From contig QULQ01000015.1 in assembly GCA_003490145.1 (NCBI GenBank), forward strand, positions 1 through 64,000: 64,000 nucleotides of DNA, written 5' to 3'. The notes beneath the pieces are model-generated. The model was given only the letters and a program-made list of their open reading frames with translations. It had not been told where the DNA came from and did not search any database. Of this stretch, positions 17,155 through 33,731 are shown in pieces. The DNA is from Lachnospiraceae bacterium OM04-12BH (GTDB lineage Bacteria; Bacillota; Clostridia; Lachnospirales; Lachnospiraceae). Position 1 is the stretch's first letter. Every line of letters begins with the position of its first letter. The position numbers were made by a program, and so were the translations under genes.

Positions 17155-17160
17155 CGATGA

Positions 17161-17184
17161 GGGCGGCGGTGAGCCGCCCTTTTT
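17161..17184 (+). terminator. Terminator of the AAA/DUF4143 gene
   Basis: GGGCGGC (17161-17167) and GCCGCCC (17173-17179) form a GC stem with a five-base loop, followed by TTTTT. Confidence 0.9.
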
Positions 17185-17187
17185 ACA

Positions 17188-17230
17188 TAGCCAGGTTTCT
17201 GATTGAAATTGGAGACCTGGCTATTTTTTT
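17188..17230 (+). terminator. Second tandem terminator
   Basis: TAGCCAGGT (17188-17196) pairs with ACCTGGCTA (17215-17223) and is followed by a run of T. It backs up the first terminator and separates the mobile region from the opposed genes. Confidence 0.8.
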
Positions 17231-17273
17231 TGCCCTTTTGCAGGTGCACATGCAGGGGGACATTCACTATTCA

Positions 17274-18038
17274 TCAGCCCAATATTTTATCAATTAACTC
17301 TGACACAGATTTGACACAGCCTTCTGCATATTGCTTTACAGTAGCTGGAGAATGATGGAATGTATAACCATGCTTTGTTGCCCTTAACATATCAATGTCA
17401 TTTTCAGCATCACCAATGGCGTAGACTTGTTCATGCATGAATCCAAGTTTCTGACAAAGGATGTTCATGGCGTTCCCTTTTGAACAGTCTCTCCACGCCA
17501 TGTCAACATCCTGGATATTTACAAAAGCTCTCACCTCCTGGTGATCTGACTTTTCCAGCCAGTCTGCAAAAGCTTTTGCAGATTTATTGTCTTTGAAATG
17601 GAATGACATTCCATAAAGTTTTTCCGTTTTTAATAAATCAATACTGCTAATAGGTGTTATTGGCAGGCTGTACTGCTTTTTTTGATTGCATGAAAATATG
17701 TTGTCTTTCGTATGAACTGTTAATGGTATATCCGATGCATATTCGTTTATTATTTTTTTGATTGCTGTAAATGATACAGGTTCTTCATGCAGTATTTGTT
17801 GATGACTATCCGCGATAATACTCCCTGTACCGGCAATCATGTAATCAGGCAAAAGATATCCTTCCAACGGAGCAACTATCCATGGCAATGCTCTGCCGGA
17901 GTTAATTACGATCAGATTTCCTCTTTGCTGGAATTCCTTTATTGCATCTAAATCTGATTCCTTAAAATATGTTTTTCCATTATCAGAGAACAATATTGTT
18001 CCATCCATGTCTGTAAATAAAATATTTTTCTGTTTCAT
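17274..18038 (-). CDS. HAD-superfamily (Cof-type) phosphatase
   Basis: This 254-residue protein starts MKQKNILFTDMDGTILFSD, with the nucleophile and acid/base pair at Asp10 and Asp12. The C-terminal metal motif reads GDAENDIDML, and a Cof-type cap lies between. The longer open frame upstream overlaps the regulator gene and is not used. It follows the GntR regulator at a spacing of 10 bases, so the two are one transcript. A role as a sugar-phosphate phosphatase in the sugar operon is inferred. Confidence 0.85.
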   Translation of the reverse strand: MKQKNILFTDMDGTILFSDNGKTYFKESDLDAIKEFQQRGNLIVINSGRALPWIVAPLEGYLLPDYMIAGTGSIIADSHQQILHEEPVSFTAIKKIINEYASDIPLTVHTKDNIFSCNQKKQYSLPITPISSIDLLKTEKLYGMSFHFKDNKSAKAFADWLEKSDHQEVRAFVNIQDVDMAWRDCSKGNAMNILCQKLGFMHEQVYAIGDAENDIDMLRATKHGYTFHHSPATVKQYAEGCVKSVSELIDKILG

Positions 18039-18048
18039 ATTTTCCCTG

Positions 18049-18774
18049 CTAAATTGATCGTCTTGTTGCATTATCCTGGAAGCTAAAGTAATCAGGGCGA
18101 TGGCGTGACTGGGTATATTCAAACATAACACCATCACTATTGTAAGTATGAGAGGTGACAACAGCCATACAGTTATAGTCTCCAAGATCCAAATATTTTT
18201 CATCAATTTCAGTCATCTTTTCTACGGTCATGATACGTTTACTTGTGACAATGGAAACTCCAAGAGTATTTTCCAGATAATCGTAAATCGACTTTTCTGC
18301 AATCTCTATCGTTAGATCTTTAGCAACGCTTTTCAAAAAATAATTATGGTTTAGAATAAGTGCTTTCCCATCTAAGTAATGAAGTCTCTGCAGATAATAA
18401 ATCTCATCGCCAATATTAAAACCGGTTTTTGCAGCAATTTTTTTGTCTACTACCAATTCTGCAAAGTGAATTACTTTGGTTTTGGCTTTCTGGTTATTTC
18501 TCTTTGCAGATTCCGTAAACGTTTCAATTGAGCCGATGGTAAATGAGGTCTGTAATGCGGGCTGGAAGATAATTCGTACCCCTTTCCCCTGCATCGTCTG
18601 TACATATCCATCGGCTACCAGATCCCCGATGGCACGGCGAATGGTATTGCGTGAGCAGTCATATTCCTGCACCAGTGTATTTTCAGAGGGGAGAAGTTCC
18701 TGAAATTCATATTCTCCGGTCTCAATTTTTCTTTTCAAGTCTTTATAAATTTCTGCATATTTTGCTTTCGGCAT
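18049..18774 (-). CDS. treR: GntR-family regulator, TreR-like
   Basis: This 241-residue protein has an N-terminal winged helix (about 5-70, with SENTLVQEYDCSRNTIRRAI) and a UTRA effector domain as in trehalose operon repressors. The start is MPKAKYAEI behind GGAGG on the minus strand. It is divergent from a PTS gene whose EIIB domain resembles TreB. Three copies of a CTTGTTTAAACAAG-like palindrome lie between them. That makes trehalose-type control likely, though the effector is inferred. Confidence 0.8.
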   Translation of the reverse strand: MPKAKYAEIYKDLKRKIETGEYEFQELLPSENTLVQEYDCSRNTIRRAIGDLVADGYVQTMQGKGVRIIFQPALQTSFTIGSIETFTESAKRNNQKAKTKVIHFAELVVDKKIAAKTGFNIGDEIYYLQRLHYLDGKALILNHNYFLKSVAKDLTIEIAEKSIYDYLENTLGVSIVTSKRIMTVEKMTEIDEKYLDLGDYNCMAVVTSHTYNSDGVMFEYTQSRHRPDYFSFQDNATRRSI

Positions 18775-18852
18775 AAATTCCTCCACTTGTTTGAACATCC
18801 ATCATTTATTATAATATTTACATATGGAAAGTCAAGAATCAAATAAGACATG

Positions 18853-18939
18853 ACTTATCTAAACAAGTTTTAAAATAAGCGTTGACATGTTTAAACAAGT
18901 GTGATATAACATAATCACAAGAAAACTTGTTTAAACAAG
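18853..18939. promoter_or_regulatory. Three TreR-type operators
   Basis: ACTTATCTAAACAAGT (18853-18868), ACATGTTTAAACAAGT (18885-18900) and ACTTGTTTAAACAAG (18925-18939) share the palindrome CTTGTTTAAACAAG. The last is perfect. The middle one overlaps the -35/-10 spacer of the PTS promoter, which fits repression. Confidence 0.8.
18882..18910 (+). promoter_or_regulatory. Promoter of the truncated PTS gene
   Basis: TTGACA (18882-18887) and TATAAC (18905-18910) have a 17-base spacer that contains the middle operator. Confidence 0.75.
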
Positions 18940-18980
18940 AATAAGCGCGCGAAACATTTATTTTAATAAGGAGAATCAAG

Positions 18981-19217
18981 ATGGGGAAGTATACAAACGA
19001 CGCAAAAGAATTACTGCACCTTGTGGGAGGAAGAGAAAACATTGCTGCAGTATCACATTGTATCACACGAATGAGATTCGTATTAAATGATCCGAAAAAA
19101 GCGGATATTCAGAAAATTGAAGCAATGAAAGTTGTTAAGGGAAGTTTCACACAGGCAGGACAGTTCCAGGTAATCATCGGGAACACGGTTTCAGATTTTT
19201 ACAAGGAGATACTTTGA
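18981..19217 (+). pseudogene. Truncated trehalose-type PTS EIIB domain (treB remnant)
   Basis: The 78 codons encode a complete-looking EIIB domain with the phosphorylatable Cys27 in VSHCITRMRF, start behind AAGGAG. TreB proteins continue with an EIIC permease of about 400 residues. Here homology ends after GNTVSDFYKE and a stop follows, because the sequence switches to an hsdM fragment at about 19205. Uptake of sugar by this gene is lost. A free EIIB domain could still be made from the intact promoter. Confidence 0.8.
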
Positions 19218-19427
19218 CTGACCCGTTCCATATGAGCGATGATGGAAAATCTCTCCGGCAATTTGATTATGAGGTCTGCAACCCTCCTTCAGCATGTGCT
19301 GAATTCGATGAAACCAAACGGAAAAGCTGCGATTGTACTTCCAACTGGTTTCCTCACGGCAAAGAGCAGCGTCGAGGGCAAACTGCTGAAGCATATTGTA
19401 AACGAGAGACTTGCAAAAAAGAAGTGA
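19205..19427 (+). pseudogene. Remnant of a type I restriction N6-adenine methylase (hsdM)
   Basis: The first piece (19205-19293) reads GDTLTDPFHMSDDGKSLRQF then DYEVCNPP, the region around the NPPF catalytic motif. From about 19292 a different frame reads LLQHVLNSMKPNGKAAIVLP and continues to LLKHIVNERL, a later part of the same protein family. The stretch normally between them is missing, so there is an internal deletion with a frameshift. Both gene ends are absent. It is joined directly to the treB fragment. Confidence 0.75.
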
Positions 19428-19584
19428 GCTTGATATAATATGAATAAAAAGGCAAAAGTCACCGCAATGGTGTGGAAATAGATTTTGGCTGTTTCCATAA
19501 GGAGTAGATCGAGAGACGTTATCCTCAGTGGCTGAAAACGCAGATGTGTGATGCTTGCAGCAAGCTATTTGTATAAGCCGAAAG

Positions 19585-19605
19585 GCCGCAGAAATGCGGC
19601 TTTTT
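19585..19605 (+). terminator. Terminator left of the methyltransferase operon
   Basis: GCCGCA (19585-19590), a GAAA loop and TGCGGC (19595-19600) are followed by TTTTT. The rest of the 261-base gap 19428-19688 holds only hsdM debris and the next promoter. Confidence 0.85.
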
Positions 19606-19617
19606 CTAAACACATGA

Positions 19618-19669
19618 GTTAGCCAAACCTAACTTGTCAATGTGTGCGTGCTGGTTAGATAAATCTAAC
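19618..19669. promoter_or_regulatory. Operon promoter with two GTTAG-N6-CTAAC operators
   Basis: GTTAGCCAAACCTAAC (19618-19633) and GTTAGATAAATCTAAC (19654-19669) are perfect in their outer five bases and centred 36 bases apart. A -35-like TTGTCA (19634-19639) lies between them, and a -10-like TAGATA (19656-19661) lies inside the second. The arrangement suggests a repressor that covers the promoter. One arm resembles a DtxR/IdeR box, but MarR or TetR families use similar half-sites. No matching regulator gene is adjacent. Confidence 0.7.
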
Positions 19670-19688
19670 TATAAAAGGAGAGACAGCA

Positions 19689-20303
19689 ATGCGAGAACAC
19701 AAGAATTTTTGGGACAGAAATGCAGGTCTGTATGACTGCTTTATGCGAAAAGACAGGGCAGTATACGAGAAAATGTATGAGCTGATCCGTCCGGTCGTGA
19801 AAGACAAAACAGTGCTGGAGGTGGCTACCGGAACGGGATTGATCGCCAAGCACATCGTAAAAGCAGCGGCACACATCGAGGCGACGGATGCCTCTCCGGA
19901 AATGATTACAGAGGCCAAACGGGGGAATTACTCTGCGAAGCTGCGTTTTTCCGTGCAGGATATGTTTTCTCTGACATACGCGAGCAAATCATTCGATGTG
20001 GTAATCATATCAAACGCACTGCACATTGTGCCTCAGCCAGAAAAATCACTGCGAGAGATCAAACGGGTGCTGAAGGATGACGGTGTGCTGATCGCGCCTA
20101 CCTTTACGCACGCAGAAAACTCATTTCCCGGCAAGGTCAAAGCCTTTTTCATGAATCTGGCAGGCTTTCCTCTCCACAGCAAGTGGACGAGTGAAGAATA
20201 CCTAAAATTTCTGCAACAGAATGATTGGACAGTGCGAAAAAGTGTTGTTCTAAAGGCCTCTTTTCCGCTGACCTATACGGAATGTGTGAAATCGGAGGTG
20301 TGA
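19689..20303 (+). CDS. Class I SAM methyltransferase (first gene of the operon)
   Basis: This 204-residue enzyme of the UbiE/Methyltransf_11 type has motif I VLEVATGTGLIA (about 42-53), EATDASPEM, and a post-II stretch FDVVIISNALHIV. It starts behind AAAGGAGAG, just downstream of the paired operators, and is followed two bases later by a second methyltransferase. The substrate is unknown. Small-molecule methylation is more likely than RNA or protein methylation judging by family and neighbours. Confidence 0.85.
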   Translation: MREHKNFWDRNAGLYDCFMRKDRAVYEKMYELIRPVVKDKTVLEVATGTGLIAKHIVKAAAHIEATDASPEMITEAKRGNYSAKLRFSVQDMFSLTYASKSFDVVIISNALHIVPQPEKSLREIKRVLKDDGVLIAPTFTHAENSFPGKVKAFFMNLAGFPLHSKWTSEEYLKFLQQNDWTVRKSVVLKASFPLTYTECVKSEV

Positions 20304-20304
20304 T

Positions 20305-20913
20305 ATGTCCTTCTTTGAAAACACCCGCAAGCCCGTAGGCTTTAGCGGGAAGATCATGGTTGCTATGATGAACTTTGGGCACAGCGCAATGGCAGCGTGG
20401 GGATTGCATTTTTTGCATTCTGCCCCGGATGCCATGGTGCTGGACTGCGGCTGCGGCGGTGGAGCGAACATCAAAACACTGCTGAAGCTGTGTCCCAAGG
20501 GCAAGGTGCAGGGCATCGACTATTCGGCAGTCAGTGTAGAAAAAGCGCGAAAGGTCAATGCAGGTGCCATTGCAGCAGGGCAGTGTACTGTGCAGCAGGC
20601 AAGTGTAGCAGAGTTGCCGTTTGAAGCGGATCAGTTTGATGTAGTGACCGCATTTGAAACGGTCTATTTCTGGCCGGAGCTTGCGCAAAATTTCAGAGAG
20701 GTCTATCGGGTGCTGAAGCCCGGCGGGACTTTTTTCATCTGTAACGAAGCAAACGGCGAAACAGCAAAAGACGACAAATGGACGCAAATCATTAACGGTA
20801 TGACCATCTATACGGATGCTGATCTGAAAGTGTATCTGGAGCAAGCAGGCTTTGGCAGGGTTCAGAGTCATAAAAATAAAAAGGGCTGGCTGTGCGTCAC
20901 AGCACAGAAATGA
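20305..20913 (+). CDS. Class I SAM methyltransferase (second gene of the operon)
   Basis: This 202-residue protein has motif I VLDCGCGGGANI (about 45-56), QGIDYSAVSV, and FDVVTAFETVYFWPEL. It is clearly different from the first methyltransferase, so the two are not a recent duplication. A strong GGAGGTGA lies in the end of the preceding gene. It may act on the same molecule in a different position. Confidence 0.85.
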   Translation: MSFFENTRKPVGFSGKIMVAMMNFGHSAMAAWGLHFLHSAPDAMVLDCGCGGGANIKTLLKLCPKGKVQGIDYSAVSVEKARKVNAGAIAAGQCTVQQASVAELPFEADQFDVVTAFETVYFWPELAQNFREVYRVLKPGGTFFICNEANGETAKDDKWTQIINGMTIYTDADLKVYLEQAGFGRVQSHKNKKGWLCVTAQK

Positions 20914-20922
20914 GGTGCGATC

Positions 20923-21786
20923 ATGTCGAAAAAAGCAACGGAATTTCAAAGAAAAGCAATGAGCCGGATGTACCGGGGCAAGGAGATCTTTAAGCCTTTG
21001 AACACCGGCTGGATCGATGAAAATGTCGCTTGTGTGCGAGAGTGGGTGGCAAATATCTTCTTCTACCGCAAGGGCGATACCACCATTATGATTGATGCCG
21101 GATACAACTATGATCGTCTGGCGGAGAAAATGAGCTGGCTCGGTATCGACCCGCATTCCATCCGGCACATCCTCATCACTCATCAGGACACCGACCATGT
21201 AGGTGCGGTGGAGGCGGACAGTCCGGGACTGTTTCGGGATGCTGCGCTGTATATTGGCGAGATCGAGAACCGCTATCTGACCGGCGAGGTGCGCCGCAGG
21301 GTTATTTACCACCTTTACAAGCTGCCGCAGGTGACGATCAACAATGAAAAAGTGCTGCTGCACGACGATGAGGTCATCGACATCGACGGGATCAGAATCG
21401 AGTGCTTTCTCGTTCCCGGTCATACATGGGGGCACATGGTATACCTTGTGGACGGGAAATATCTCTTTACTGGCGATACTATCTGGTTCGGCGCGGACGG
21501 CGGCTACAGCTTTATTTCTGCGCTGGCAGAGGATAACAAGCTGGCAGTGAAGTCGCTGGCACTGCTGGAGAAAAAGCTGAAAAAACGTGGGCTGCATCCG
21601 CTGTTCATTACCGGCCACACCGGCTGGACGGACAACATGGAGTTTGCCTTTGCGCACAAAAATGAGCTGTGCTCGCCTTTCAAAAAAAGAGCCCACGACC
21701 CCAATGCGCTTTACGATGCCTATGATGAATCTGACGATACCGAAGAAAAAGCAAAGAGCGGGTACTTGAAAGGCGTGGGAAGATGA
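20923..21786 (+). CDS. MBL-fold metallo-hydrolase
   Basis: This 287-residue protein has the metal-binding pattern THQDTDHVG (His87, Asp89, Asp91, His92), where the second His of HxHxDH is replaced by Asp. It then has GHTWGHMVYL (about 166), GDTIWFGAD (about 185) and a C-terminal GHTGW. The substitution does occur in some family members, but metal occupancy should be checked. The natural substrate is unknown. It is co-translated with the next gene (ATGA overlap). Confidence 0.85.
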   Translation: MSKKATEFQRKAMSRMYRGKEIFKPLNTGWIDENVACVREWVANIFFYRKGDTTIMIDAGYNYDRLAEKMSWLGIDPHSIRHILITHQDTDHVGAVEADSPGLFRDAALYIGEIENRYLTGEVRRRVIYHLYKLPQVTINNEKVLLHDDEVIDIDGIRIECFLVPGHTWGHMVYLVDGKYLFTGDTIWFGADGGYSFISALAEDNKLAVKSLALLEKKLKKRGLHPLFITGHTGWTDNMEFAFAHKNELCSPFKKRAHDPNALYDAYDESDDTEEKAKSGYLKGVGR

Positions 21787-22484
21787 AGGACAGCGAATTA
21801 CAAATTGACCGTAGCTGCCATGTGCTATACTCCAAAACCTGCAAAAAGGAAATTCTGGCGAAAATCACTCTGCACTATCCGGAGGTGGAGCGCGAGGCGG
21901 TCTGGGAGCAGGTGCAGCTGAGATACGCAGAGCTTCTTTCCAAGTGGCGCACCGACCTCGGCGGTAAAAAGAATTTTCACAACGGCGTAGGCGGCACCTA
22001 CGACTGCATCGCCATCATGAGCTATTATGTGGTCTGCAAAGCAATTACTTCGTTCCGTGAAATTGAAGAGATGGAGGAAAATCTGATCCTGCCGACCTTC
22101 CGCAAGCTGAAATTCGTGGACTGCAACAAGCCGTTCTGGAAAAAACTGATGCACATGGCGTTTCTACGGGCAAAAGCGGGCTGTGACAAGTGGCACGATT
22201 ATGAAATGACGGTGGCTCCTTACGAAAAGAACAAGCCGATCTATTATGAATTTACCGCCTGTCCCGCAGCGGAATTTGCTATCAGAAACGGCCTTACAGA
22301 GATCATGCCCGCCCTGTGCAATGTGGACTATGCGTCCATGGAACTGCTCCATGCCAAGCTGGTGCGGACGACCACCTGCGTGGACGGCTGCCGATGCGAC
22401 TACACCATCTGCGGCGATAAAGACCCGTACTTGAAGGGACATCCCGAATACCGGGATGAGGCGGGCTTCAGGAGGAATCGGTAA
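21783..22484 (+). CDS. L-2-amino-thiazoline-4-carboxylate hydrolase-like protein 1
   Basis: This 233-residue protein has the C-terminal signature of the ATC hydrolase family: FTACPAAEFAIRNGL, then PALCNVDYASMELLHAKLVR and a Cys-rich end CVDGCRCDYTICG. The namesake activity opens thiazoline rings in cysteine synthesis in Pseudomonas. Few members have been tested, so the reaction here is open. It is the first of three diverged members in this operon. Start and stop overlap both neighbours. Confidence 0.75.
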   Translation: MKDSELQIDRSCHVLYSKTCKKEILAKITLHYPEVEREAVWEQVQLRYAELLSKWRTDLGGKKNFHNGVGGTYDCIAIMSYYVVCKAITSFREIEEMEENLILPTFRKLKFVDCNKPFWKKLMHMAFLRAKAGCDKWHDYEMTVAPYEKNKPIYYEFTACPAAEFAIRNGLTEIMPALCNVDYASMELLHAKLVRTTTCVDGCRCDYTICGDKDPYLKGHPEYRDEAGFRRNR

Positions 22485-22978
22485 TGCTTTTACAGGTGAT
22501 TTTGGAAGGTCTTGGGTTGGGCGTTCTGCTCATTTTGGTTTGCGCCATCGGTATCCGCAAGGGCGCGGTGGGCATGGTGCATCTTTACAGCCAGGAGGTG
22601 CAGGAGCGGTGCGTAACGCTGGGACTTACAACACACGCGAAAATCAAGCGAAATGCTTTCATTTTCAAAGCTGTCTGCGTCCCCGGATACATCGCCTATG
22701 TGCTGGTCTGCGTCTATGCGCTCAACGGCGCAAAGGGCTTCGTTCAGGGCTTCTGGCAGCTGCTGGTCATACTGTCCGTTATGAATCTCATAGACCGATT
22801 TTGGGTTGACGGCTATTGGGTAGGACATACGAACGCATGGGAAATTCCGGGAACGGAAGACCTGAAACCCTACATTACAGCCAAGGATAAGGGCAAAAAG
22901 TGGCTGTTCGGCACAATTGGTATGGCGGTCATTTCGGCAGCACTGGCGGCGATTATGATGCTTTTTATGAAAATATGA
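22484..22978 (+). CDS. Four-helix membrane protein, unknown function
   Basis: This 164-residue protein has hydrophobic segments at about 5-25, 64-84, 88-108 and 140-162. A polar hairpin with WVDGYWVGHTNAWEIPGTED lies before the last segment. The start overlaps the previous stop by one base (TAATG) behind AGGAGG. I do not recognise the family. In this operon it is the only complete integral membrane protein and could be a permease partner or membrane anchor. Confidence 0.7.
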   Translation: MLLQVILEGLGLGVLLILVCAIGIRKGAVGMVHLYSQEVQERCVTLGLTTHAKIKRNAFIFKAVCVPGYIAYVLVCVYALNGAKGFVQGFWQLLVILSVMNLIDRFWVDGYWVGHTNAWEIPGTEDLKPYITAKDKGKKWLFGTIGMAVISAALAAIMMLFMKI

Positions 22979-22988
22979 GGTGATAGAA

Positions 22989-23762
22989 ATGCTGTTTCAA
23001 ACATATGGCGACAGGAGGAATCCTGCCGTGCTGTTCTTTCATGCAATGGGTGTGACAGGAGCGAGCAGCGAACCGATTGCGAGGTATTTGCAGGATCGAT
23101 ATTTCTGCATCTTGCCCACCTCCTCCGTTTACTGCGAGGGGCAGAAATATGTCAGCAAGCTGGACGAAATACGGCAGGTGGAGGACTTTCTGCATCGACA
23201 GGGCGTGGAGCGGCTGGCGATGGTTGTCGCTTCTTCCATCGGTGCAGACCTTGCCATGGCGTTTCTGACGCAGACGAAGCTGCCCGTGGAGCACGCTTTC
23301 TTTGACGGCGGGCAGTTCGCCCAAATCGGAAAGGGCACGCGCCGTATCATGACGCCGTTTCTGTATTTTGCCATCAAGAACCTATATTGGTCGAAGGGTG
23401 GTACGCTGAAAAAGATACTGTGGTGTGACGACGATTCCATAAAGTCGTATTTTATAGACGCAGGGAAAAATCTGACCTATACAAATTTGCGGCGGCAGAT
23501 TTCGGACAGTCTGGAGGATAAACCCTTTCCGCCGCTTTCAAAAGAATTGCAAAAACATACCTATTTCGAGTTTGGCAGTATAGAAGATCATTTCAAATAC
23601 CGTCAAGCAGTGATGGAAGCCTACCCCTGCGGTAATTACCCCGTATTTGAGGGATACGATCACATGCAATATCAGATTCGTGATCCGAAGGGCTTTGCTG
23701 AAATGCTGGCATTTATCACTGAGCAGGACGGTATGCCGAAGCTGCCGTTTATCAGAAAGTGA
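22989..23762 (+). CDS. Alpha/beta hydrolase
   Basis: This 257-residue protein has an oxyanion stretch FFHAMGVTGAS near 15, the nucleophile elbow VASSIGADLA near 80 and the catalytic His region GYDHMQYQ near 223. ATG 22989 behind GAGGTGA is preferred over the in-frame GTG nine bases upstream. The substrate is unknown. It likely removes an ester or amide in the same pathway as the neighbouring methyltransferases. Confidence 0.8.
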   Translation: MLFQTYGDRRNPAVLFFHAMGVTGASSEPIARYLQDRYFCILPTSSVYCEGQKYVSKLDEIRQVEDFLHRQGVERLAMVVASSIGADLAMAFLTQTKLPVEHAFFDGGQFAQIGKGTRRIMTPFLYFAIKNLYWSKGGTLKKILWCDDDSIKSYFIDAGKNLTYTNLRRQISDSLEDKPFPPLSKELQKHTYFEFGSIEDHFKYRQAVMEAYPCGNYPVFEGYDHMQYQIRDPKGFAEMLAFITEQDGMPKLPFIRK

Positions 23763-23773
23763 GAGGACCCGAT

Positions 23774-24616
23774 ATGAAATACAAAATCGAGAAAAACACC
23801 GTGCAGGAGACGCTGGTCATTCCGCTGTACGGCAGGAAGATGTGTTCTGAGCTGTATCCGAACCTCTACCGGGATGAGACGGCCATCCGGCTGATGAAGG
23901 AGATCGACTACGACTTTTCGGTGCTGGAGAAGAAGTCGGGCAACCTCATGCAGCGCTTTGGATTTCTGGAGGCCGCCATGCGGCAGAACGACCTGGCCTG
24001 GGAGGTGCGGGACTATCTGAAAACCCACCCCAACGCAGCGGTGGTCAACCTCGGCTGCGGGCTGGATAACACCGGTAGAGCCTGCGACAATGGCAGCTGT
24101 AAAATCTACAATCTGGACTTCCCGGATGTGATCGCCTTGCGGCAGCAGCTTCTGCCCGCCGGGGAGCGGGAGCAAAACATCCCCTGCGACCTGAAAGACC
24201 CCGCATGGTTTGACAAGATCGATGCCTCCGGCGGGGCGGTGTTCTTTGCCTCCGGGGTGTTTTATTACTTCCTGACGGAGCAGGTTCGGGAACTGGTGCA
24301 TGGGATGGCGGACGCTTTCCCCGGCGGAGTGCTGGTCTTTGATGCTGCCAACCGTACGGCGGTGAAGATGATCGCTAAAACGTGGCTCAGGACGGCGAAA
24401 ATCAAGGATGTGGGAGCATATTTCGCGGTTTCGGATGCGAAAAGCGAGCTTTCCCTATGGGACAGCCGTTTGCAAGTATTCAGCAGGGGCTATATGATGG
24501 GCTACAACGACCTGAAAGACCCTTCCGTCAGCGGCTTTTTCCGATTTCTCGCCAAGGTCGGGGACAACGGGATGAAAATGCAGATCGTGAAGATCGGATT
24601 TGGAGGCAAGCTATGA
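23774..24616 (+). CDS. Leucine carboxyl methyltransferase-family enzyme (TcmP-like)
   Basis: This 280-residue protein resembles the LCMT/TcmP group, which O-methylates carboxylates, including polyketide intermediates. The SAM-binding region reads VVNLGCGLDNTGRAC (about 81-95), with YNLDFPDVIALR and FFASGVFYYF downstream. The start is ATG 23774 with AGAGG before it. It overlaps the reductase gene by four bases. It is the third methyltransferase in the operon and belongs to a different family from the first two. Confidence 0.82.
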   Translation: MKYKIEKNTVQETLVIPLYGRKMCSELYPNLYRDETAIRLMKEIDYDFSVLEKKSGNLMQRFGFLEAAMRQNDLAWEVRDYLKTHPNAAVVNLGCGLDNTGRACDNGSCKIYNLDFPDVIALRQQLLPAGEREQNIPCDLKDPAWFDKIDASGGAVFFASGVFYYFLTEQVRELVHGMADAFPGGVLVFDAANRTAVKMIAKTWLRTAKIKDVGAYFAVSDAKSELSLWDSRLQVFSRGYMMGYNDLKDPSVSGFFRFLAKVGDNGMKMQIVKIGFGGKL

Positions 24617-25539
24617 AAATTCTGGTATATGGTGCAGGCGTTCTGGGGTGCAATCTGGGAAGAAATCTGCTGCGCGCCGGAAAGGATGTCACTCTGCTTG
24701 CGCGGGGAAACTGGGCTGCGGAGATCAAGCAGAACGGCCTGCGGATCAAGGACAAATTGTCGCTCCGCACCTCGGTCAGCTGCATTCCGGTGGTGACTGA
24801 ACTTGCACCGGATGCAATGTACGATGTGATCTTTGTGGTCCTGCGCTATACACAGCTGGATTCCGTTCTGGACACGCTGCGGGCGAACCGGACGAAAAAC
24901 ATCGTATTTGTGGGCAACAACGTACAGACAAAAGCATTGGCGGCGGCACTGCCGGAAAAGAACGTCCTGTTTGCCTTTGCGCTTTCTGCCGGGCATCGGG
25001 AGGCTGACCGGGTGGTCTCCATCGACCTGAAGAAGATCACCATCGGGCAGCTGACGGGTGCAAAGTCCAATAAACAGTTGATCGGGCGCATCTTCCACGG
25101 CACAAAATATAAGGTTGTTTACGAGCCGAACATGGAGGACTATCTGCTCTGCCATGCTGCGTTTGTGATGCCTGCGGCCTTCGCCTGCTATAAGACAGAC
25201 GGCGACCTGAAAAAGCTCCGGGGAGATACCGCGTACCTGAACCGTGTGCTGGATGCCAACATCGAGGGATACCGCGCCATCCGAGATGCCGGGCACACCA
25301 TTCTGCCCAAGGAGGATGCAGACTTTGAAGGGGAGAAATACCGCAAGACCTGCCTGCGCTTTTTCAAGCTGATGTGTGCCACTTCGCTGGGCAAGCTCTG
25401 CGCCTCCGACCATGCCATGAACGCCATCGACGAAATGAGTGCGCTGAACCGGGATCTTAAGAAATTTTTCGATGAACATGGCGCAGCCTACCCGGTGTGG
25501 CAGGCACTGGAAGCGGAAGCCGGGAGGTATCTGCAATGA
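24613..25539 (+). CDS. Ketopantoate reductase-like dehydrogenase (PanE/ApbA family)
   Basis: This 308-residue protein has the N-terminal Rossmann motif YGAGVLGCNLGRNLLRAG at 5-22 and the two-domain layout of ApbA/PanE enzymes. The family also includes opine-type and other 2-oxo acid reductases. With no pantothenate genes nearby, a pathway-specific reduction is more likely than pantoate synthesis. The start follows GGAGG, overlapping the previous stop, and its own stop overlaps the next start. Confidence 0.82.
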   Translation: MKILVYGAGVLGCNLGRNLLRAGKDVTLLARGNWAAEIKQNGLRIKDKLSLRTSVSCIPVVTELAPDAMYDVIFVVLRYTQLDSVLDTLRANRTKNIVFVGNNVQTKALAAALPEKNVLFAFALSAGHREADRVVSIDLKKITIGQLTGAKSNKQLIGRIFHGTKYKVVYEPNMEDYLLCHAAFVMPAAFACYKTDGDLKKLRGDTAYLNRVLDANIEGYRAIRDAGHTILPKEDADFEGEKYRKTCLRFFKLMCATSLGKLCASDHAMNAIDEMSALNRDLKKFFDEHGAAYPVWQALEAEAGRYLQ

Positions 25540-26168
25540 AATACGCTGGAATGCCCTTTGGAATGTGGGCGCTGTTTGCCGGTTCCTTTCAAAAGCAGCT
25601 GACTGTGGTGCTGGGCTATGATGCAGACACTGCAAAAGCCATCACGAAAATGGCAAAGCCACAATACCGGCAGATCATCCGCAGACTGCCGGAGTTTGAA
25701 AAGGCCGACCGCTTCAAAATGAATCTGGTCAACTGTGCCATGACTGGCGCGTTCGTTCTTTCCATGCCGCAGCGCCCCGAGGTGGACAGGCTGACGGATT
25801 ACTATGCAAAAGCCATGATGACAAAGCCCATGCAGTGGTTCTGCTGCAAAAGCGGAAAAAGCAAGTTCACCGCAAAGGATATTGCCGCCATGAAAGCCAC
25901 CGCTGCCATGAAAGCCGCCGACCGCAACCCCTATTCGTGGAACATGGAGTTTTACGAATACCCGGATGGCAACGGCTACGAGGGACGCTTTACCAAATGC
26001 GGCATCTGTGTGCTGATGAAGGAGCTGGATCTGTACGACCTGACCCCCGCCCTGTGCCATCTGGACTACACCATGAGCGAAGCGGGCGGTGTGACAAATT
26101 TTGTGCGGCAGTACACCCTTGCCTCCGGCGGGCCCTACTGCGACTGCGGGTACAAAAAGAAAGGGTAA
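25536..26168 (+). CDS. L-2-amino-thiazoline-4-carboxylate hydrolase-like protein 2
   Basis: This 210-residue protein shares with the first paralog the C-terminal pattern FTKCGICVLMKE, PALCHLDYTMSE and an end reading GGPYCDCGYKKKG. Sequence between the motifs has diverged widely. It overlaps the reductase gene by four bases. Activity is not established. Confidence 0.72.
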   Translation: MKYAGMPFGMWALFAGSFQKQLTVVLGYDADTAKAITKMAKPQYRQIIRRLPEFEKADRFKMNLVNCAMTGAFVLSMPQRPEVDRLTDYYAKAMMTKPMQWFCCKSGKSKFTAKDIAAMKATAAMKAADRNPYSWNMEFYEYPDGNGYEGRFTKCGICVLMKELDLYDLTPALCHLDYTMSEAGGVTNFVRQYTLASGGPYCDCGYKKKG

Positions 26169-26174
26169 CGGACG

Positions 26175-26780
26175 ATGAAGAGGAAGGAAACCTATCTTTC
26201 CCGTGATTTCCGGGAGACTGCGGCACAACGTTTTCCTGCGCAGGCAAAGCAGCTGAACGCCGCTTTTGATATGCGTCTGAATGCGTTGCTGGCTGAAAAC
26301 GCGGGTGCAAGCAAGGAAAAGCAGTACCACCTCAAACGGCAAATCTTACCGGGCATTGCGGCCTACGAAACCTTGCAGCGGGTCATGCCGAAAGAAGAAG
26401 CACTGCAAACCGTTCACGGCTATGTGGAGCGGCTGGCGAGAACGAGCCACAAACAGCTTGCCGCCCTGCTGCACATACCGGGGCTTTACCGCCTTGTTCC
26501 CGGCGTTTTTGTCAAATCCACCCGGAGCGTTTTTGGCCCGGCGGCGGGCTTTGCCCCAAAAGAGCTGCAGACCGGCAACGGCGTATGGCGTGTGGACATG
26601 ATGAAATGCCCGTATCATGACACCTGTGCAGAATACGGCTGCCCGGAGCTGTGCCGCTGCTTTTGCGACAGCGACGACATCAGCTATACCGGGCTGCATC
26701 CGAAGCTGATCTGGGAGAGAAACATGACGCTGGGACGCGGCAATGACCGCTGCGATTTTTGCATGAAAACCATAAAATAG
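26175..26780 (+). CDS. L-2-amino-thiazoline-4-carboxylate hydrolase-like protein 3
   Basis: This 201-residue protein shows the same C-terminal layout in its own version: MMKCPYHDTCAEYGCPELC, then CDSDDISY, an Arg-Asn-Met-Thr stretch and the end GRGNDRCDFCMKTIK. It keeps the Cys pair and the final CD(F/C) motif of the other two. The N-terminal half is mainly helical. It sits six bases after paralog 2. Confidence 0.7.
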   Translation: MKRKETYLSRDFRETAAQRFPAQAKQLNAAFDMRLNALLAENAGASKEKQYHLKRQILPGIAAYETLQRVMPKEEALQTVHGYVERLARTSHKQLAALLHIPGLYRLVPGVFVKSTRSVFGPAAGFAPKELQTGNGVWRVDMMKCPYHDTCAEYGCPELCRCFCDSDDISYTGLHPKLIWERNMTLGRGNDRCDFCMKTIK

Positions 26781-26800
26781 ATGCACAGGAAGCGAAGAAA

Positions 26801-26977
26801 ATGAAGAAAGAAGAAACGAAACAGTTCATCCGCTGGTGCATTCTTGGCGCAGTCGGATGCGGATTTATGGCTGCCGGGGACTGGCTGCTGGGCTGGGAGC
26901 GGTCGGGGGCTTTCTCTATTGCAATCAGCACGGATTGTTTTCTGTTAAGGTGTAGAAACGATGGAGTTAAAAACTGA
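26801..26977 (+). CDS. Short membrane protein, probably truncated
   Basis: The 58 codons start MKKEETKQFIRWCILGAVGC behind AAGCGAAG and hold one hydrophobic helix ending GDWLLGW. The last 20 residues (after about GAFSI) look unrelated and are followed by a stop, as if a longer membrane protein lost its 3' end. It marks the right edge of the operon. A convergent gene begins 80 bases later. Confidence 0.5.
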   Translation: MKKEETKQFIRWCILGAVGCGFMAAGDWLLGWERSGAFSIAISTDCFLLRCRNDGVKN

Positions 26978-27057
26978 TTGAGAGAATTAGAATTTGTGAA
27001 ATCCACATATTTTAAGAAGGGGCCTTCGCTTATGCGAAAGCTCCATTTCTGCACACA

Positions 27058-27624
27058 TTACTTTTTCAGCTTTAAGCCATCTTGGAATGCTTCGCCCACA
27101 CGCTCGGTGACTTTATAATAGCCGTGGGTGTAGGGGTCAAATGCGATGGCGTTGACCTTAGACATATCAATTTTTCCATCCACCATAACGCTCTCATCGG
27201 CAGTGACATTGACCACCTTGCCGATGACGCCGCATCCGTATTCATTGTTCTGATACTCGATGAACCTGCACTCCAGGCAGATCGGGAACTCGTTGATGAC
27301 AGGGGCATCTACAGTTTCTGCTTTGCTGGCGGTCAGACCGCTGCGGGCAAATTTATCGGCGACTTTATTGCCGGATTCTACGCCGAAATAGTCTGCTTCC
27401 ACTATGTGGGCAGCATCGGCAATGCTGACGGTGAATTCTCCCCGTGCCTTGATGTTCTGTACGGTCTTGTGTGTCTCAGCGAGGTTCAGAACAACGGTGT
27501 CCCGCTCCTGCATGGTGCCCCATGCGGCGTTCATGACATTGACGCTGCCGTCCTCGTTGTAAGTTGCAACCATCAGAACCGGCATGGGGAAAATGCCTTC
27601 GGTAATTTTCAGTTTTGTTCTCAT
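27058..27624 (-). CDS. Flavin reductase-like domain protein
   Basis: This 188-residue protein of the FMN-binding flavin reductase-like fold has GIFPMPVLMVAT at the start, NVMNAAWGTM, an ETHKTVQNIKARGEFTVS stretch and a C-terminal FDPYTHGYYKV. Members use FMN and NAD(P)H or act as small redox proteins. It is divergent from an HxlR regulator with overlapping promoters, and that regulator probably controls it. Confidence 0.85.
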   Translation of the reverse strand: MRTKLKITEGIFPMPVLMVATYNEDGSVNVMNAAWGTMQERDTVVLNLAETHKTVQNIKARGEFTVSIADAAHIVEADYFGVESGNKVADKFARSGLTASKAETVDAPVINEFPICLECRFIEYQNNEYGCGVIGKVVNVTADESVMVDGKIDMSKVNAIAFDPYTHGYYKVTERVGEAFQDGLKLKK

Positions 27625-27647
27625 GATAACTCCTCCTTGTGATCATA

Positions 27648-27676
27648 TTGACAGGAATGTTCATCCTGCTTATAAT
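27648..27676 (+). promoter_or_regulatory. Promoter of the HxlR gene
   Basis: TTGACA (27648-27653) and TATAAT (27671-27676) are spaced by 17 bases, both consensus or nearly so. Confidence 0.8.
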
Positions 27677-27702
27677 TATATCCACACAAATTGTAAATTC
27701 AA
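27675..27702 (-). promoter_or_regulatory. Promoter of the flavin reductase gene
   Basis: Read on the minus strand, TTGAAT (27702-27697) and TATAAT (27680-27675) are 16 bases apart. The -10 shares two bases with the opposed -10, so both promoters cannot fire at once. Confidence 0.7.
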
Positions 27703-27743
27703 GTACTGATAATTATGACAGGTACTATCTTAGGAGAAAGTGA

Positions 27744-28082
27744 ATGATACAGAACTATATTGAGAACGCCAATTTCGAAGATACCGGCTTTGCCTACACG
27801 TTGTCGCTGATCTCCGGCAAGCACAAGATGGTCATTCTTTACTGCCTGATGGAGTTTGAGACGGTGCGATTCAATGAGTTGAAACGGTATCTGAAAACCA
27901 TTTCCGACAAAACTCTCAGCACGAATCTCAAGGAGCTGGAAGCGGCTAAACTGATCGTCCGCACCGAGTATCCGCAGATCCCGCCGAAGGTGGAATATAC
28001 ACTTTCGGAACGAGGAAAAACGCTGATGACTGTGCTGGATCAGCTCTGTGTCTGGGGCGAGGAGAATCGACTGACAGAGTGA
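27744..28082 (+). CDS. HxlR-family transcriptional regulator
   Basis: This 112-residue winged-helix protein has the HxlR pattern: SGKHKMVILYCLMEFETVRF, FNELKRYLKTISDKTLSTNL and a wing region VRTEYPQIPPKVEYTLS. HxlR/YodB-type proteins often sense electrophiles and control reductases. It is divergent from the flavin reductase gene. No N-terminal cysteine of the YodB type is obvious, but one lies at CLMEF. Confidence 0.85.
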   Translation: MIQNYIENANFEDTGFAYTLSLISGKHKMVILYCLMEFETVRFNELKRYLKTISDKTLSTNLKELEAAKLIVRTEYPQIPPKVEYTLSERGKTLMTVLDQLCVWGEENRLTE

Positions 28083-28127
28083 CAACTTCCAGATTGTATA
28101 ATTTTAAAATTTAAAAAAGCGAAAGTC

Positions 28128-28208
28128 CTGCATCTTGTTTTGTTTGATGCTGATTATCCCTACATCGTTCCACTTCACTACGGATACGAATATACAGAGG
28201 GTGGCTTA
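28128..28208 (+). pseudogene. Remnant of a PPOX-class flavin-binding protein
   Basis: The frame reads LHLVLFDADYPYIVPLHYGY then EYTEGGL, a typical N-terminal piece of pyridoxamine-phosphate-oxidase-like (NimA-type) proteins. There is no proper start and homology is lost after about 27 codons. The lipoprotein gene begins shortly after. It is a scar of gene loss. Confidence 0.6.
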
Positions 28209-28245
28209 TGTGATGGAAGCGACAGATCAAAGGTTGGAGGTAAAA

Positions 28246-28713
28246 ATGGGAAAATATATATTAAGCATGGCGAGTTTGGGACTTTTAATTTTTGCATTAG
28301 CAGGATGTGGAAACACTCAAAAAAATGACTTGCCAAATAGTAAAGCTCAGTCAGATACTGCTACCGCAGATGGTGAAATTCAGTCAAATACCGCTGCCTC
28401 AAAATTCCAAATGCCGGAAGAAGGCTATTATAGTAATGATTTTGATGAAATTCTGAATATTACTAAAAAGGATGATGGCACATATAGTATCGAATATAGC
28501 GTTACCCATTTGCTTTATGTCGAAAACGCAATTGGAACTTATGATTCTGAAACAGGGATTCTCAGCTTTAGCGGCAAAGATGATAGGGGAGATGATATAA
28601 AAGCGGATATCGAAAATAAGGGTGATCATTTGGAGGTCACTGTAACTCAAAGTAGTCATGAAGATATTGTTGGAACAACACAGATTTTTTCTCAGACAGA
28701 TGAGTATCAATAA
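28246..28713 (+). CDS. Small lipoprotein, unknown function
   Basis: This 155-residue protein starts MGKYILSMASLGLLIFALAG behind TTGGAGG. It has a lipoprotein signal peptide ending LAGC (Cys at about 21) and a Ser/Asp/Gln-rich linker. A globular part follows with repeated beta-strand patterns and many Asp (GTYSIEYSVTHLLY, GILSFSGKDDRGDD). Extracellular, anchored to the membrane. I do not recognise a family. A longer open frame upstream belongs to the PPOX remnant. Confidence 0.75.
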   Translation: MGKYILSMASLGLLIFALAGCGNTQKNDLPNSKAQSDTATADGEIQSNTAASKFQMPEEGYYSNDFDEILNITKKDDGTYSIEYSVTHLLYVENAIGTYDSETGILSFSGKDDRGDDIKADIENKGDHLEVTVTQSSHEDIVGTTQIFSQTDEYQ

Positions 28714-28778
28714 AAAATTTTCATTTTCCAGTTTATCAAATAGGTAACACCCACTCAACAACTGAATATATTAACCAT

Positions 28779-28817
28779 GAGCAGTTATTTTCAATCCAGA
28801 AAACGGCTGCTCTTTTT
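28779..28817 (+). terminator. Terminator after the lipoprotein gene
   Basis: GAGCAG (28779-28784) pairs with CTGCTC (28807-28812), followed by TTTTT. The loop is long and the stem short, so it may be weak. The remaining gap to 29032 holds only the 12-codon ORF below. Confidence 0.5.
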
Positions 28818-28935
28818 ATGGGCCGTGACCCTGTTGAGCTCGCGAAGCGTGCGAAATATAAACCACAATCACCTATTCTTGTAATAGAAAGTAGAGTATG
28901 GTAGTGTATAGAAAAGTAACTGAGGGGAGGAACTG

Positions 28936-28974
28936 ATGAGAGCATTATATGATCTTGTTTGTGAAAAATTATAA
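28936..28974 (+). CDS. Possible 12-codon leader ORF before the MATE gene
   Basis: ATG 28936 behind a near-perfect GGGGAGG reads MRALYDLVCEKL and stops. It is 57 bases before the MATE start. It could be a leader peptide or the trimmed start of a lost gene. Confidence 0.3.
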   Translation: MRALYDLVCEKL

Positions 28975-29031
28975 AATATGTTTTTTGCTATGCTTGTATT
29001 TTTGGATAAAAGTTGAAAGGCGTGAAGGAAT

Positions 29032-30381
29032 ATGATCATGTCAAAAGATGAGTATTTAATTACCGATGTGCCGCTGAAAGCGTTGACGGTTTTTGCAATG
29101 CCGATGATTCTCGGCAGCTTTTTTCAGCAGGTATATAATATGGCTGACTCCATTATCGTAGGTCAGTTTGTTGGTTCCTCCGCACTGGCGGCGGTTGGTG
29201 CCTGTGCAGCGCTTACTAATGTTTTCATTTGTGTGGCACTGGGTGCCGGTGTTGGTGCAGGTGTGCTTGTGAGCCGCTATTTCGGTGCCAAGGAGTATGG
29301 AAAAATGAAAACCATTGTGTCTACATCACTGATCAGCTTTTTGCTTCTGAGTATCATCCTTGGTGTCTTTGGCTTTTACTTTTCCCATGTGATGATGAGC
29401 GGATTACAGACTCCTCCCGATATTCTGGAGGAAGCAGTGCTGTACTTGCGGGTCTATTTTGCGGGCTTTCCATTTTTGTTCATGTACAATATTCTCTCTA
29501 CCATGTTCACTTCCATCGGTGAATCAAAAATTCCCCTGGGACTGCTGATCTTTTCATCCATCCTGAATATTGTGATGGATCTTTGGATGGTAGCCGGTCT
29601 GGGGCTTGGTGTGTTCGGTGCGGCGCTTGCAACTTTGATTGCACAGGGCATTTCGGCTGTGCTTTCACTTTTGATTTTCTTTTACCGGATGCAGCGGTAT
29701 AGGAGTAGCTTTGCCTGGTTTGATGGGCAGGAGCTGCGCTCGATGCTTCGGATTGCTGTTCCATCGGTTCTTCAGCAGTCTACCGTATCTATCGGTATGA
29801 TGATCGTACAGGCGGTGGTAAATCCTTTCGGTACACAGGCACTCGCAGGGTACGCGGCAACAATGAGGGTGGAGAATGTTTTTTCCCTGATTTTCGTGTC
29901 CATCGGTAATGCGGTTTCACCGTATGTTTCCCAGAACCTTGGCGCAAACAAAATCCCGCGCATCAAAAAAGGCTATCACGCAGCATTGGTGTTGGATGTG
30001 TGTTTTGCGGCTCTTGCCTTCCTTGTCATTGAAACGCTGCACACGCAGATTTCCTCGTTGTTCCTCGGAAAAGACGGAACCGCCCTGGCTTATCAGGTGT
30101 CTGGGAATTATATGAGATGGCTTGGTTACTTCTTTATCTTTATGGGAATTAAAATGGCGACTGATGGAGTTCTTCGCGGACTCGGAATCATGCGTCCGTT
30201 CCTCATTGCCAATATGGTAAACCTTGCGATTCGCTTGTCTGTGGCGTTGATCTGTGCTCCGCGTTTTGGTATTGATTTTGTTTGGCTTGCCGTGCCAGCA
30301 GGCTGGCTTGCTAACTTTCTGGTTTCCTATATGGCACTCAGAAAATCCTGGCCGACTGAGAAAGTGGAGCCATCTCGATAA
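29032..30381 (+). CDS. MATE-family multidrug efflux transporter 1
   Basis: This 449-residue protein has twelve predicted membrane segments in two homologous halves. It opens PLKALTVFAMPMILGSFFQQ with VYNMADSIIVGQFVG, the usual MATE N-terminal phrase. It exports cationic drugs or metabolites using Na+ or H+ gradients. ATG 29032 and ATG 29038 are both possible. It is only moderately similar to the next MATE protein, so the pair is not a recent duplicate. Confidence 0.9.
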   Translation: MIMSKDEYLITDVPLKALTVFAMPMILGSFFQQVYNMADSIIVGQFVGSSALAAVGACAALTNVFICVALGAGVGAGVLVSRYFGAKEYGKMKTIVSTSLISFLLLSIILGVFGFYFSHVMMSGLQTPPDILEEAVLYLRVYFAGFPFLFMYNILSTMFTSIGESKIPLGLLIFSSILNIVMDLWMVAGLGLGVFGAALATLIAQGISAVLSLLIFFYRMQRYRSSFAWFDGQELRSMLRIAVPSVLQQSTVSIGMMIVQAVVNPFGTQALAGYAATMRVENVFSLIFVSIGNAVSPYVSQNLGANKIPRIKKGYHAALVLDVCFAALAFLVIETLHTQISSLFLGKDGTALAYQVSGNYMRWLGYFFIFMGIKMATDGVLRGLGIMRPFLIANMVNLAIRLSVALICAPRFGIDFVWLAVPAGWLANFLVSYMALRKSWPTEKVEPSR

Positions 30382-30493
30382 GAGTTCTGTGTAACCCGGG
30401 TGTGCACGCCCCGGGAGGAAAATCCTTGCAAAAGTCTGTCATGACGGATAGAATAAAGTCAGAACAAGCAGAAGCACAAAGGACACAGTCAGC

Positions 30494-31864: not shown

Positions 31865-31909
31865 ATTCTCGATAGAGAAAAAACAGTGGCATATCCTGCT
31901 GAATACAGG

Positions 31910-31915
31910 TATAAT
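31910..31915 (+). promoter_or_regulatory. -10 element of the 31948 operon
   Basis: A consensus TATAAT lies 33 bases before the start codon. The -35 (TGGCAT at 31887) is weak. Confidence 0.5.
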
Positions 31916-31947
31916 GAGCCTGTAAAAACCATAAGGAGGATGTAAGG

Positions 31948-32199
31948 ATGCTAGAGTTCAGATATGATACACAGCTTCTGATCGAAGGAGAGGATCTTGA
32001 TGAAGATGTGATCAGTGATTATTTTACAGAGAATTTTAAAGGTGACTGTCTGCTTGCAGTAGGAGATGAGGATCTGATCAAGATCCATTATCATACCAAT
32101 GAGCCATGGAAGGTTCTTGAGTACTGCTCTACTCTTGGAGAGATCTACGACATCGTTGTAGAGGATATGGACAGACAGGCACGTGGACTGAAAGGCTAG
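31948..32199 (+). CDS. Stand-alone FakA/DAK2 C-terminal-like domain
   Basis: This 83-residue protein resembles the C-terminal domain of FakA/DAK2-type fatty acid kinases: LLAVGDEDLIKIHYHTNEPW with KVLEYCSTLGEIYDIVVEDM. The kinase domain is absent and the gene has its own GGAGG, so it is a small domain protein rather than a truncated end. It might bind a fatty-acid carrier or regulate a kinase elsewhere. It heads an operon with DUF896 and metY. Confidence 0.7.
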   Translation: MLEFRYDTQLLIEGEDLDEDVISDYFTENFKGDCLLAVGDEDLIKIHYHTNEPWKVLEYCSTLGEIYDIVVEDMDRQARGLKG

Positions 32200-32209
32200 G
32201 AACAGAACC

Positions 32210-33723: not shown

Positions 33724-33731
33724 GAGAAGAA

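Follow-up and report, generated by a model that had tools for sequence, protein, structure and literature searches.

A modular gene array behind paired candidate iron boxes in gut Clostridia: a possible toolkit against foreign chelators

A first point of comparison for the system considered here is the equibactin locus of Streptococcus equi. In its published description, the eqbB promoter contains GTTAGATGTATCTAAC, inside a 36-bp palindrome, and EqbA, a DtxR-like protein, binds this promoter in a metal-dependent manner (PMC3672683). According to the same account, EqbHIJ are required for uptake of the predicted thiazoline siderophore, and EqbK/L resemble YbtP/Q, the authors' data hinting at efflux (PMC3672683). 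Another example is found in Faecalibacterium duncaniae. As reported for this bacterium, reverse transcription PCR indicates that FeSO4 shuts off feoAABC while feoAB is indifferent, and in RNA sequencing a flavodoxin gene rises together with feoAABC (PMC10781979). The present study concerns an array of ten genes, named A to J, found in positions 1 to 64,000 of contig QULQ01000015.1 from Lachnospiraceae bacterium OM04-12BH; this whole stretch of 64,000 nucleotides is called the window. Two copies of the palindrome GTTAG-N6-CTAAC, hereafter the box, precede gene A. Comparison with related loci suggests that the constant element of such arrays is the promoter region with its box and not the gene set. 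A literature search, judged by titles and abstract openings, gave no description of this array, of its iron box or of its modularity.

Box 1 (19618..19633, no strand) is an exact copy of the palindrome located 71 bp before gene A, and its core is that of the EqbA-bound eqbB promoter as described (PMC3672683). Box 2 (19654..19669, no strand), also exact, lies 36 bp after box 1 and 35 bp before gene A. The pair was absent from an earlier interpretation of this DNA made from its letters alone (the sequence-only reading). Taken by itself, the number of boxes in the window is not significant: there are 2 when one mismatch is allowed, shuffled sequences give 0.87 on average, and 20 of 100 shuffles reach 2. 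The case for the box therefore rests on its exactness, its position and its recurrence in other loci. Relatives of the array were collected by using protein D as bait against genome contigs of 84,980 species, which gave 39 loci (L numbers), with Faecalibacterium, Gemmiger, Blautia, Ruminococcus and numerous uncultured Clostridia among their hosts. Their genes were called by a simple self-trained caller of open reading frames, and family labels such as f09 designate clusters of this study. Once the three sources with their first gene at a contig edge (L010, L025, L026) are set aside from a total of 40, 37 are testable. Of these 37, 31 (25 with an exact copy) have the box ahead of their first array gene, at a distance of 250 bp or less and regardless of which gene leads; arrays led by other genes, f13, f19, C, D, E and f22 among them, have it in the same position. 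In the same test, 119 rearranged control palindromes gave at most 0 exact occurrences and 3 with one mismatch. Since these loci have relatives among one another, the 37 sources do not amount to 37 independent events.

The region before gene A illustrates this constancy. The DNA upstream of this gene has diverged, yet two boxes, with at most one mismatch and 34-36 bp apart, are kept in 11 of the 14 sources having gene A; of the other three, L001 has one box, L014 lacks any within 250 bp, and L010 is interrupted by the contig end. A remnant of the 3′ end of a TetR-type regulator gene (21 codons plus stop, 19511..19576, plus strand) precedes the boxes of the window, as judged from its reading frame and from relatives. 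Similar 3′ ends are seen in L002, L018 and L037, and a long TetR-type gene (192-207 residues) lies directly upstream of gene A in L004, L006, L007, L013 and L029, with a TetR_N Pfam match for L006. A second set of loci was assembled with protein G as bait: 297 genomes of one family were searched, 42 matched, and 20 loci representing 324 kb were taken from 19 of the matched genomes. These 324 kb contain 36 exact boxes, as compared to at most 3 copies of any of the 119 control palindromes. Where G is more than 50% identical, an exact box occurs in nine of the ten fetched loci, L160 having near boxes alone; in L158 and L159 the exact boxes lie after G, L159 also showing near boxes before it. Among the ten loci with a weaker G, exact boxes are found in L165, L167 and L172 and near ones in L164 and L168; no exact box is present in L163, L166, L169, L170 and L171.

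Gene content behaves in the opposite manner. At thresholds of 50% identity and 70% coverage, the 39 loci display 29 distinct sets of window genes, a count that includes L035, with partial genes only, and several loci cut by contig ends. The complete set of ten occurs in no locus, and the closest approach to it is nine genes, in three loci. The presence of D carries no information, D being the bait, and besides D no window gene is universal. Since gene sets differ between most relatives and none but the bait is shared by all, the genes have the character of interchangeable modules. Intervening slots are occupied by other genes of a few recurring kinds, namely further methyltransferases, alpha/beta hydrolases, ATC-like proteins (for L-2-amino-thiazoline-4-carboxylate, see below), four-helix proteins, a ZIP transporter, a DUF6796 protein or a BAAT-type hydrolase. 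The sequence-only reading had seen in the operon a complete small-molecule tailoring or detoxification pathway. The idea of small-molecule modification survives, but 29 sets in 39 loci do not agree with a complete pathway, and the fixed pathway gives way to a modular array, very probably controlled by the iron box. The conserved clustering in other genomes by which that reading could be checked is indeed seen: gene order is the same as in the window for 385 of 395 co-occurring gene pairs.

The nearest DNA relatives of the individual genes point in the same direction. They are L018 and L002 (F. prausnitzii) for gene A (98.5%), L015 for B (89.8%), L016 (Gemmiger) for C (95.2%), L029 for D (89.2%), L004 (Blautia luti) for E (97.8%), L013 for F (93.2%), L001 for G (88.4%), L011 for H (97.1%), L001 again for I (92.7%) and L039 for J (94.4%). 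Identity to the window is also uneven within one locus, gene A being at 80% and E at 98% in L004, and A at 99% and C at 81% in L002. In addition, some lost genes have left stubs of their 3′ ends: of B directly before C (L003, L009, L012, L016, L038), of G before H or its replacement (L002, L009, L011, L015, L016, L038, L039) and of D before E (L037, L038, L039). With neighbours packed so closely, the 3′ end of a lost gene contains the ribosome site of the one that follows, and selection would keep these stubs for the sake of that site. Some partial genes in the 39 loci do not have the form of a 3′ stub. The overall pattern looks like recombination swapping single genes at fixed slots, and modular exchange of the array genes is, on these comparisons, hardly in doubt. 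Separately, in L002 (10702-11892) a deletion between E and H has produced one frame of 396 residues that begins as E and finishes as H.

The array was likely acquired by transfer. Its G+C fraction in 1-kb bins is 0.49-0.56 (20000-27000) against 0.36-0.50 on its flanks (17000-20000 and 27000-39000), with the caveat that the bins at 12000-14000 and 39000 also exceed 0.5. DNA identity of the array genes to their nearest loci in other genera amounts to 88-98.5%, whereas the glutamine synthetase gene of the window is at most 75% identical among 250 sampled genomes of one family. It is this combination of high G+C and of cross-genus identity above that of glutamine synthetase that argues for transfer. 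When a mobile-element origin was sought, neither 72,556 plasmid records nor 50,697 phage records gave a match.

The distribution of the box over whole genomes was then considered. Three genomes have 13, 12 and 13 boxes against 2, 2 and 0 occurrences of the reversed pattern, and 31 genomes of one genus have 226 boxes in sum against 33 reversed-pattern hits. The neighbours of 37 of the 38 sites in the three genomes were examined, the last being the L003 array itself. Genes at boxes encode DUF3793 proteins, flavodoxin, FeoA, ferredoxin, MptD-type energy-coupling factor (ECF) transporters, an exporter-fold ATP-binding cassette (ABC) transporter, small metal-binding-domain proteins, pyruvate formate-lyase, Tp47-domain proteins and array proteins. 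Hidden Markov models (HMMs) verified at least one protein each for DUF3793, MptD, PflB, Tp47, NEAT, Shp, ZIP, TetR, AraC, DtxR and FeoB. The flavodoxin, ferredoxin, FeoA, DUF454 and HMA/CopZ-like genes, the FecB/FecCD-like genes of L038 and L003, and the PTS (phosphotransferase system) and HsdM fragments mentioned below are named from reading their sequences and not from an HMM. HMM searches of six genomes placed FeoB itself at 13 positions. At six of these, two FeoA genes precede FeoB and all six have an upstream box, five exact and one in the form of two one-mismatch sites; the box is exact and 47-81 bp before FeoA in genomes G003 and G006, and the two one-mismatch sites are those of G004. 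No exact box was found at the other seven FeoB loci. As side observations, a box lies 41 bp upstream of the pyruvate formate-lyase gene in L073 and L077 (two Faecalibacterium genomes, HMM-checked in L073), which suggests iron-dependent switching of fermentation, and boxed secreted proteins occur in L071, L072 and L079 (Faecalibacterium), two of them Tp47-like (HMM-checked in L079).

In genomes that carry such arrays, the box marks genes of the iron-starvation type, for DUF3793, flavodoxin, FeoA, haem capture and ECF uptake. Through the paired palindrome at 19618 and 19654, the array is tied to this probable iron regulon. Concerning the regulator, DtxR-family genes coding for 123-131 residues are present in array loci L004, L165 and L167, and both PF02742 proteins and Fur occur in all six relative genomes searched. 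An EqbA-type DtxR repressor would be favoured over Fur. In L172, an exact box lies 161 bp ahead of a Fur-family gene (near 1241-1827, reverse-complemented coordinates), a hint that two metal regulators may control one another.

Several observations weigh against iron control through the box and have to be balanced with the above. Six of the 37 sources have no box inside 250 bp (L014, L020, L031, L032, L033, L035), L014 having an exact box 273 bp from its first array gene. Two of the 31 genomes show nearly as many control hits as boxes (10 versus 7 and 10 versus 6), and one has no box. For at least nine of the 38 sites, either the adjacent gene shows no evident link to iron or the nearest 350 bp contain no gene; these are the sites of L056, L058 (two), L060, L063, L065 and L070, together with the far ones of L073 and L077. 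In three Faecalibacterium genomes (G001, G002, G005), the exact box fronts not feoA itself but a DUF3793 gene situated 0.4-0.9 kb ahead of it. In the same genomes, the fused feoAB (L111, L113, L115) has a one-mismatch box 52-53 bp upstream. The idea that iron-indifferent feoAB lacks the box was rejected on this ground, and such a degenerate site would fit weak or no iron control. In a published F. prausnitzii co-expression network, an ATC-hydrolase cluster belongs to the green module and the feoA cluster to the magenta one (PMC9674144). The EqbA mobility shift assay, as described, used a 227-bp fragment and not the palindrome by itself (PMC3672683). Finally, Fur-family genes are present in array loci L014 and L172. 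On balance, regulation of the array through the iron box is very likely, and so is its membership of an EqbA-type iron regulon.

The array consists of ten open reading frames of the same strand (plus) from 19689 to 26780, followed by a truncated eleventh. Junctions either overlap by 1-4 bp, at C/D, D/E, G/H and H/I, or leave gaps of 1-11 bp. Genes A (19689..20303, 204 residues) and B (20305..20913, 202 residues) encode class I S-adenosylmethionine (SAM) methyltransferases (PF08241, E 2.9e-21 and 3.9e-23, respectively). Gene C (20923..21786) encodes a metallo-hydrolase of 287 residues with the metallo-beta-lactamase (MBL) fold, according to Pfam. The products of D (21783..22484, 233 residues), I (25536..26168, 210 residues) and J (26175..26780, 201 residues) are the first, second and third ATC_hydrolase-family proteins; their PF14196 scores of 50.7, 76.3 and 115.4 bits are all above the curated cut-off of 28.1. 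Gene E (22484..22978, 164 residues) would encode a four-helix membrane protein: its structure model consists of four long helices, no Pfam model matched, and D104 and D109 are invariant in 24 aligned sequences. Gene F (22989..23762, 257 residues) encodes an alpha/beta hydrolase, for which the Pfam match is weak and below cut-off (E 0.009) and PDB entry 4rpc gives support (E 2e-5). Gene G (23774..24616, 280 residues) encodes a methyltransferase of LCM/TcmP type (PF04072, E 2e-8), and H (24613..25539, 308 residues, start set at the overlapping ATG) an oxidoreductase resembling ketopantoate reductase, of ApbA/PanE type (PF02558, E 1.7e-18). The truncated start of a DUF6796-like membrane protein (26801..26977, plus strand) marks the broken 3′ end of the array, by similarity seen by eye to the L016:16574 protein (PF20599).

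Most of what the sequence-only reading had said of these genes stands. Pfam agrees with its two methyltransferases and with its MBL-fold, TcmP-type and ApbA/PanE-type families, and the close packing, the four-helix protein and the three ATC-hydrolase-like proteins are as it described. Its alpha/beta hydrolase was borne out by the PDB match, the Pfam one being weak, and its count of at least nine coupled genes becomes exactly ten, plus the truncated frame. A single promoter, as it proposed, would fit the gene spacing and the paired operator; a scan for sigma-70 promoters, however, found no consensus at 19600-19690, the nearest upstream match being at 19411-19439. It had also excluded non-ribosomal peptide synthetases (NRPS) and polyketide synthases, and indeed no listed reading frame exceeds 900 residues in the window (frames cut by its ends excluded) and no such domain was found in the Pfam search of the ten array proteins. 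Outside the array, three features of the window were noted by eye. Just upstream, at 18981-19427, short reading frames resemble fragments of a PTS IIB protein and of a type I restriction methylase, probably junction debris. A translation-factor-like GTPase of 639 residues at 4821-6740 resembles ribosomal-protection tetracycline-resistance proteins, with recombinase, relaxase and replication-type genes in the region. Downstream, at 29032-31864, stand two consecutive genes for MATE-type-like efflux pumps with no iron box.

What the enzymes would act upon is a more delicate question. Seven positions of the ATC-like proteins (C145, C164, D167, R182, T185, C193 and D194) are invariant in 19 of 19 aligned sequences; gene D of L031, which has internal stops, was excluded from this alignment. 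Identity to J is 15% for I and 18% for D. The structure model of J (predicted local distance difference test 93.8) weakly resembles H-NOX, Bet3 and phenol-sensor domains, its best Foldseek matches being H-NOX haem domains (E 8.7e-4). A link of the ATC-hydrolase family to that fold group is reported independently (PMC5847659, as stated there). Importer-like neighbours of the arrays include exporter-fold ABC pairs with AraC-type regulators, MptD-type ECF transporters, binding-protein systems, ZIP proteins and the NEAT/Shp haem system of L165; the ABC pairs lie near arrays outside the window and, compared with importers of IrtAB/YbtPQ type (fused permease-ATPase pairs beside siderophore genes), their NCBIfam matches are below cut-off.

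In the model that we propose, both boxes would be occupied, and transcription blocked, by an Fe2+-loaded short repressor from the EqbA subclass of the DtxR family. When iron drops, the repressor would leave the boxes and the entire array would be expressed. Its O-, N- or carboxyl-methyltransferases, MBL-fold and alpha/beta hydrolases, ATC-hydrolase-like proteins, reductase and small membrane protein would then modify imported iron chelators, either siderophores of other microbes or dietary chelators, thereby freeing iron inside the cell and disabling the chelator. Hydrolases, thiazoline-opening proteins and methyltransferases for catechols and carboxylates would represent the kit needed to loosen many chelators. 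Each module would match one chelator class, which would explain the variation of content from strain to strain. Several levels of this model should be distinguished. There is good support for what it says on regulation and evolution; the biochemical role of the enzymes is one that we infer. As a whole, an iron-starvation-induced modular array acting on imported chelators comes close to an even call, staying a little under it. That the enzymes process chelators at all is possible, at somewhat below even. It is tempting to go further and to imagine an iron-gated combinatorial toolkit, gut clostridia swapping enzyme modules in one operator-controlled array to strip iron from the community's foreign chelators, but this we put forward as tentative.

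Two other explanations are the main rivals, metallophore synthesis and haem or tetrapyrrole handling. In the former, methyltransferase-fold proteins, reductase and hydrolases would make an exported iron chelator with no need for an NRPS, and the nearby ABC pair would export or re-import it. The presence in one operon of an iron box, several proteins of SAM-enzyme fold and a reductase, with ABC pairs and uptake systems nearby, speaks in its favour. However, 29 gene sets in 39 loci leave no common set of steps, and no obvious enzyme making a substrate is seen. Opine metallophore genes of the staphylopine type were also looked for: in the ten proteins no nicotianamine-synthase or opine-dehydrogenase Pfam model is found at E up to 0.1, and none appears among the best 25 NCBIfam matches for each array protein. 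Metallophore synthesis is unlikely, while deserving to be kept in mind.

In the second explanation, the array would release iron by modifying haem, products of haem breakdown or chlorins from the diet, and the ATC-like proteins would bind the tetrapyrrole. The H-NOX matches of the J model would suit this view. One gene of a cyanobacterial tolyporphin cluster, tolI, is described as a member of the ATC-hydrolase family (PMC8401325). Downstream of the boxed array of L165 come further boxed genes, for NEAT, Shp haem-binding, binding-protein, permease, ATPase and DtxR proteins. Even so, we regard a role in haem or tetrapyrrole handling as rather improbable. As to L165 itself, the region 3801-8574 after the array contains boxed haem-capture genes for a NEAT/FIVAR protein of 870 residues and a Shp-type protein of 297 residues. 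It also contains a gene for a protein of 281 residues that seems to begin with a winged helix and matches NEAT weakly, below cut-off; this protein could be a haem-sensing regulator, and one like it was noticed by eye in L158.

The remaining explanations are both very unlikely. A TetR-controlled detoxification of antibiotics or xenobiotics, independent of iron, would account for the TetR gene ahead of gene A in several loci and for enzyme kinds typical of detoxification, but both boxes are kept (some with one mismatch) in the window, L002, L018 and L037 despite the TetR remnant, and the box also fronts feo, flavodoxin and haem-uptake genes. Iron sparing, in which the enzymes would tune metabolism or membrane lipids to low iron instead of acting on chelators, agrees with the same box at flavodoxin and pyruvate formate-lyase genes, but variable content and horizontal exchange would be ill-suited to housekeeping adjustment.

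Faecalibacterium, Gemmiger and Blautia are common gut bacteria, and the literature that we found on their iron acquisition contains little beyond Feo and a putative fhu operon. The box offers a one-sequence test for the iron regulon of these bacteria, and with it many genes annotated as methyltransferase or ATC hydrolase would move into iron biology. The array also represents a case of operon evolution through single-gene exchange at fixed slots. If chelators are indeed the substrates, the array would predict which strains are able to use or disarm the siderophores of others, and which may respond to iron-binding drugs or diets. Were it to act as a toolkit, it would be the modular counterpart of siderophore piracy relying on transporters only.

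How does the array compare with known systems? With natural-product tailoring enzymes such as TcmP and UbiE-like methyltransferases, the array has enzyme classes in common; it differs from the clusters of such enzymes in having neither a core biosynthetic enzyme nor a fixed gene set. With the L-2-amino-thiazoline-4-carboxylate hydrolase family (PF14196), D, I and J have in common scores above the cut-off and a conserved Cys/Asp/Arg core. They are distinguished by the low identity of I and D to J and by their place in an iron-boxed operon, and thiazoline hydrolysis is putative here. Classical DtxR/IdeR regulons (TTAGGTTAGSCTAACCTAA; PMC10317159) also show TTAG/CTAA half-sites with iron genes downstream, but the classical IdeR box is described as four repeats in 19 bp, whereas the array box has two half-sites six bases apart (PMC10317159). 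As to feoAABC of F. duncaniae, the FeoA-FeoA-FeoB loci of related genomes are boxed upstream like the array; feoAABC encodes a ferrous-iron transporter and the array encodes enzymes (PMC10781979, as presented there). The equibactin locus eqbA-N, on ICESe2, shares with the arrays the GTTAG-N6-CTAAC promoter and an alpha/beta hydrolase; a YbtP/Q-like ABC pair, the short DtxR-like repressor EqbA and carriage on a mobile element may be counted as further likenesses (PMC3672683). Equibactin is made by NRPS and the window array has none; moreover, as far as that publication describes it, eqb is one 14-gene cluster, whereas the arrays vary from locus to locus (PMC3672683).

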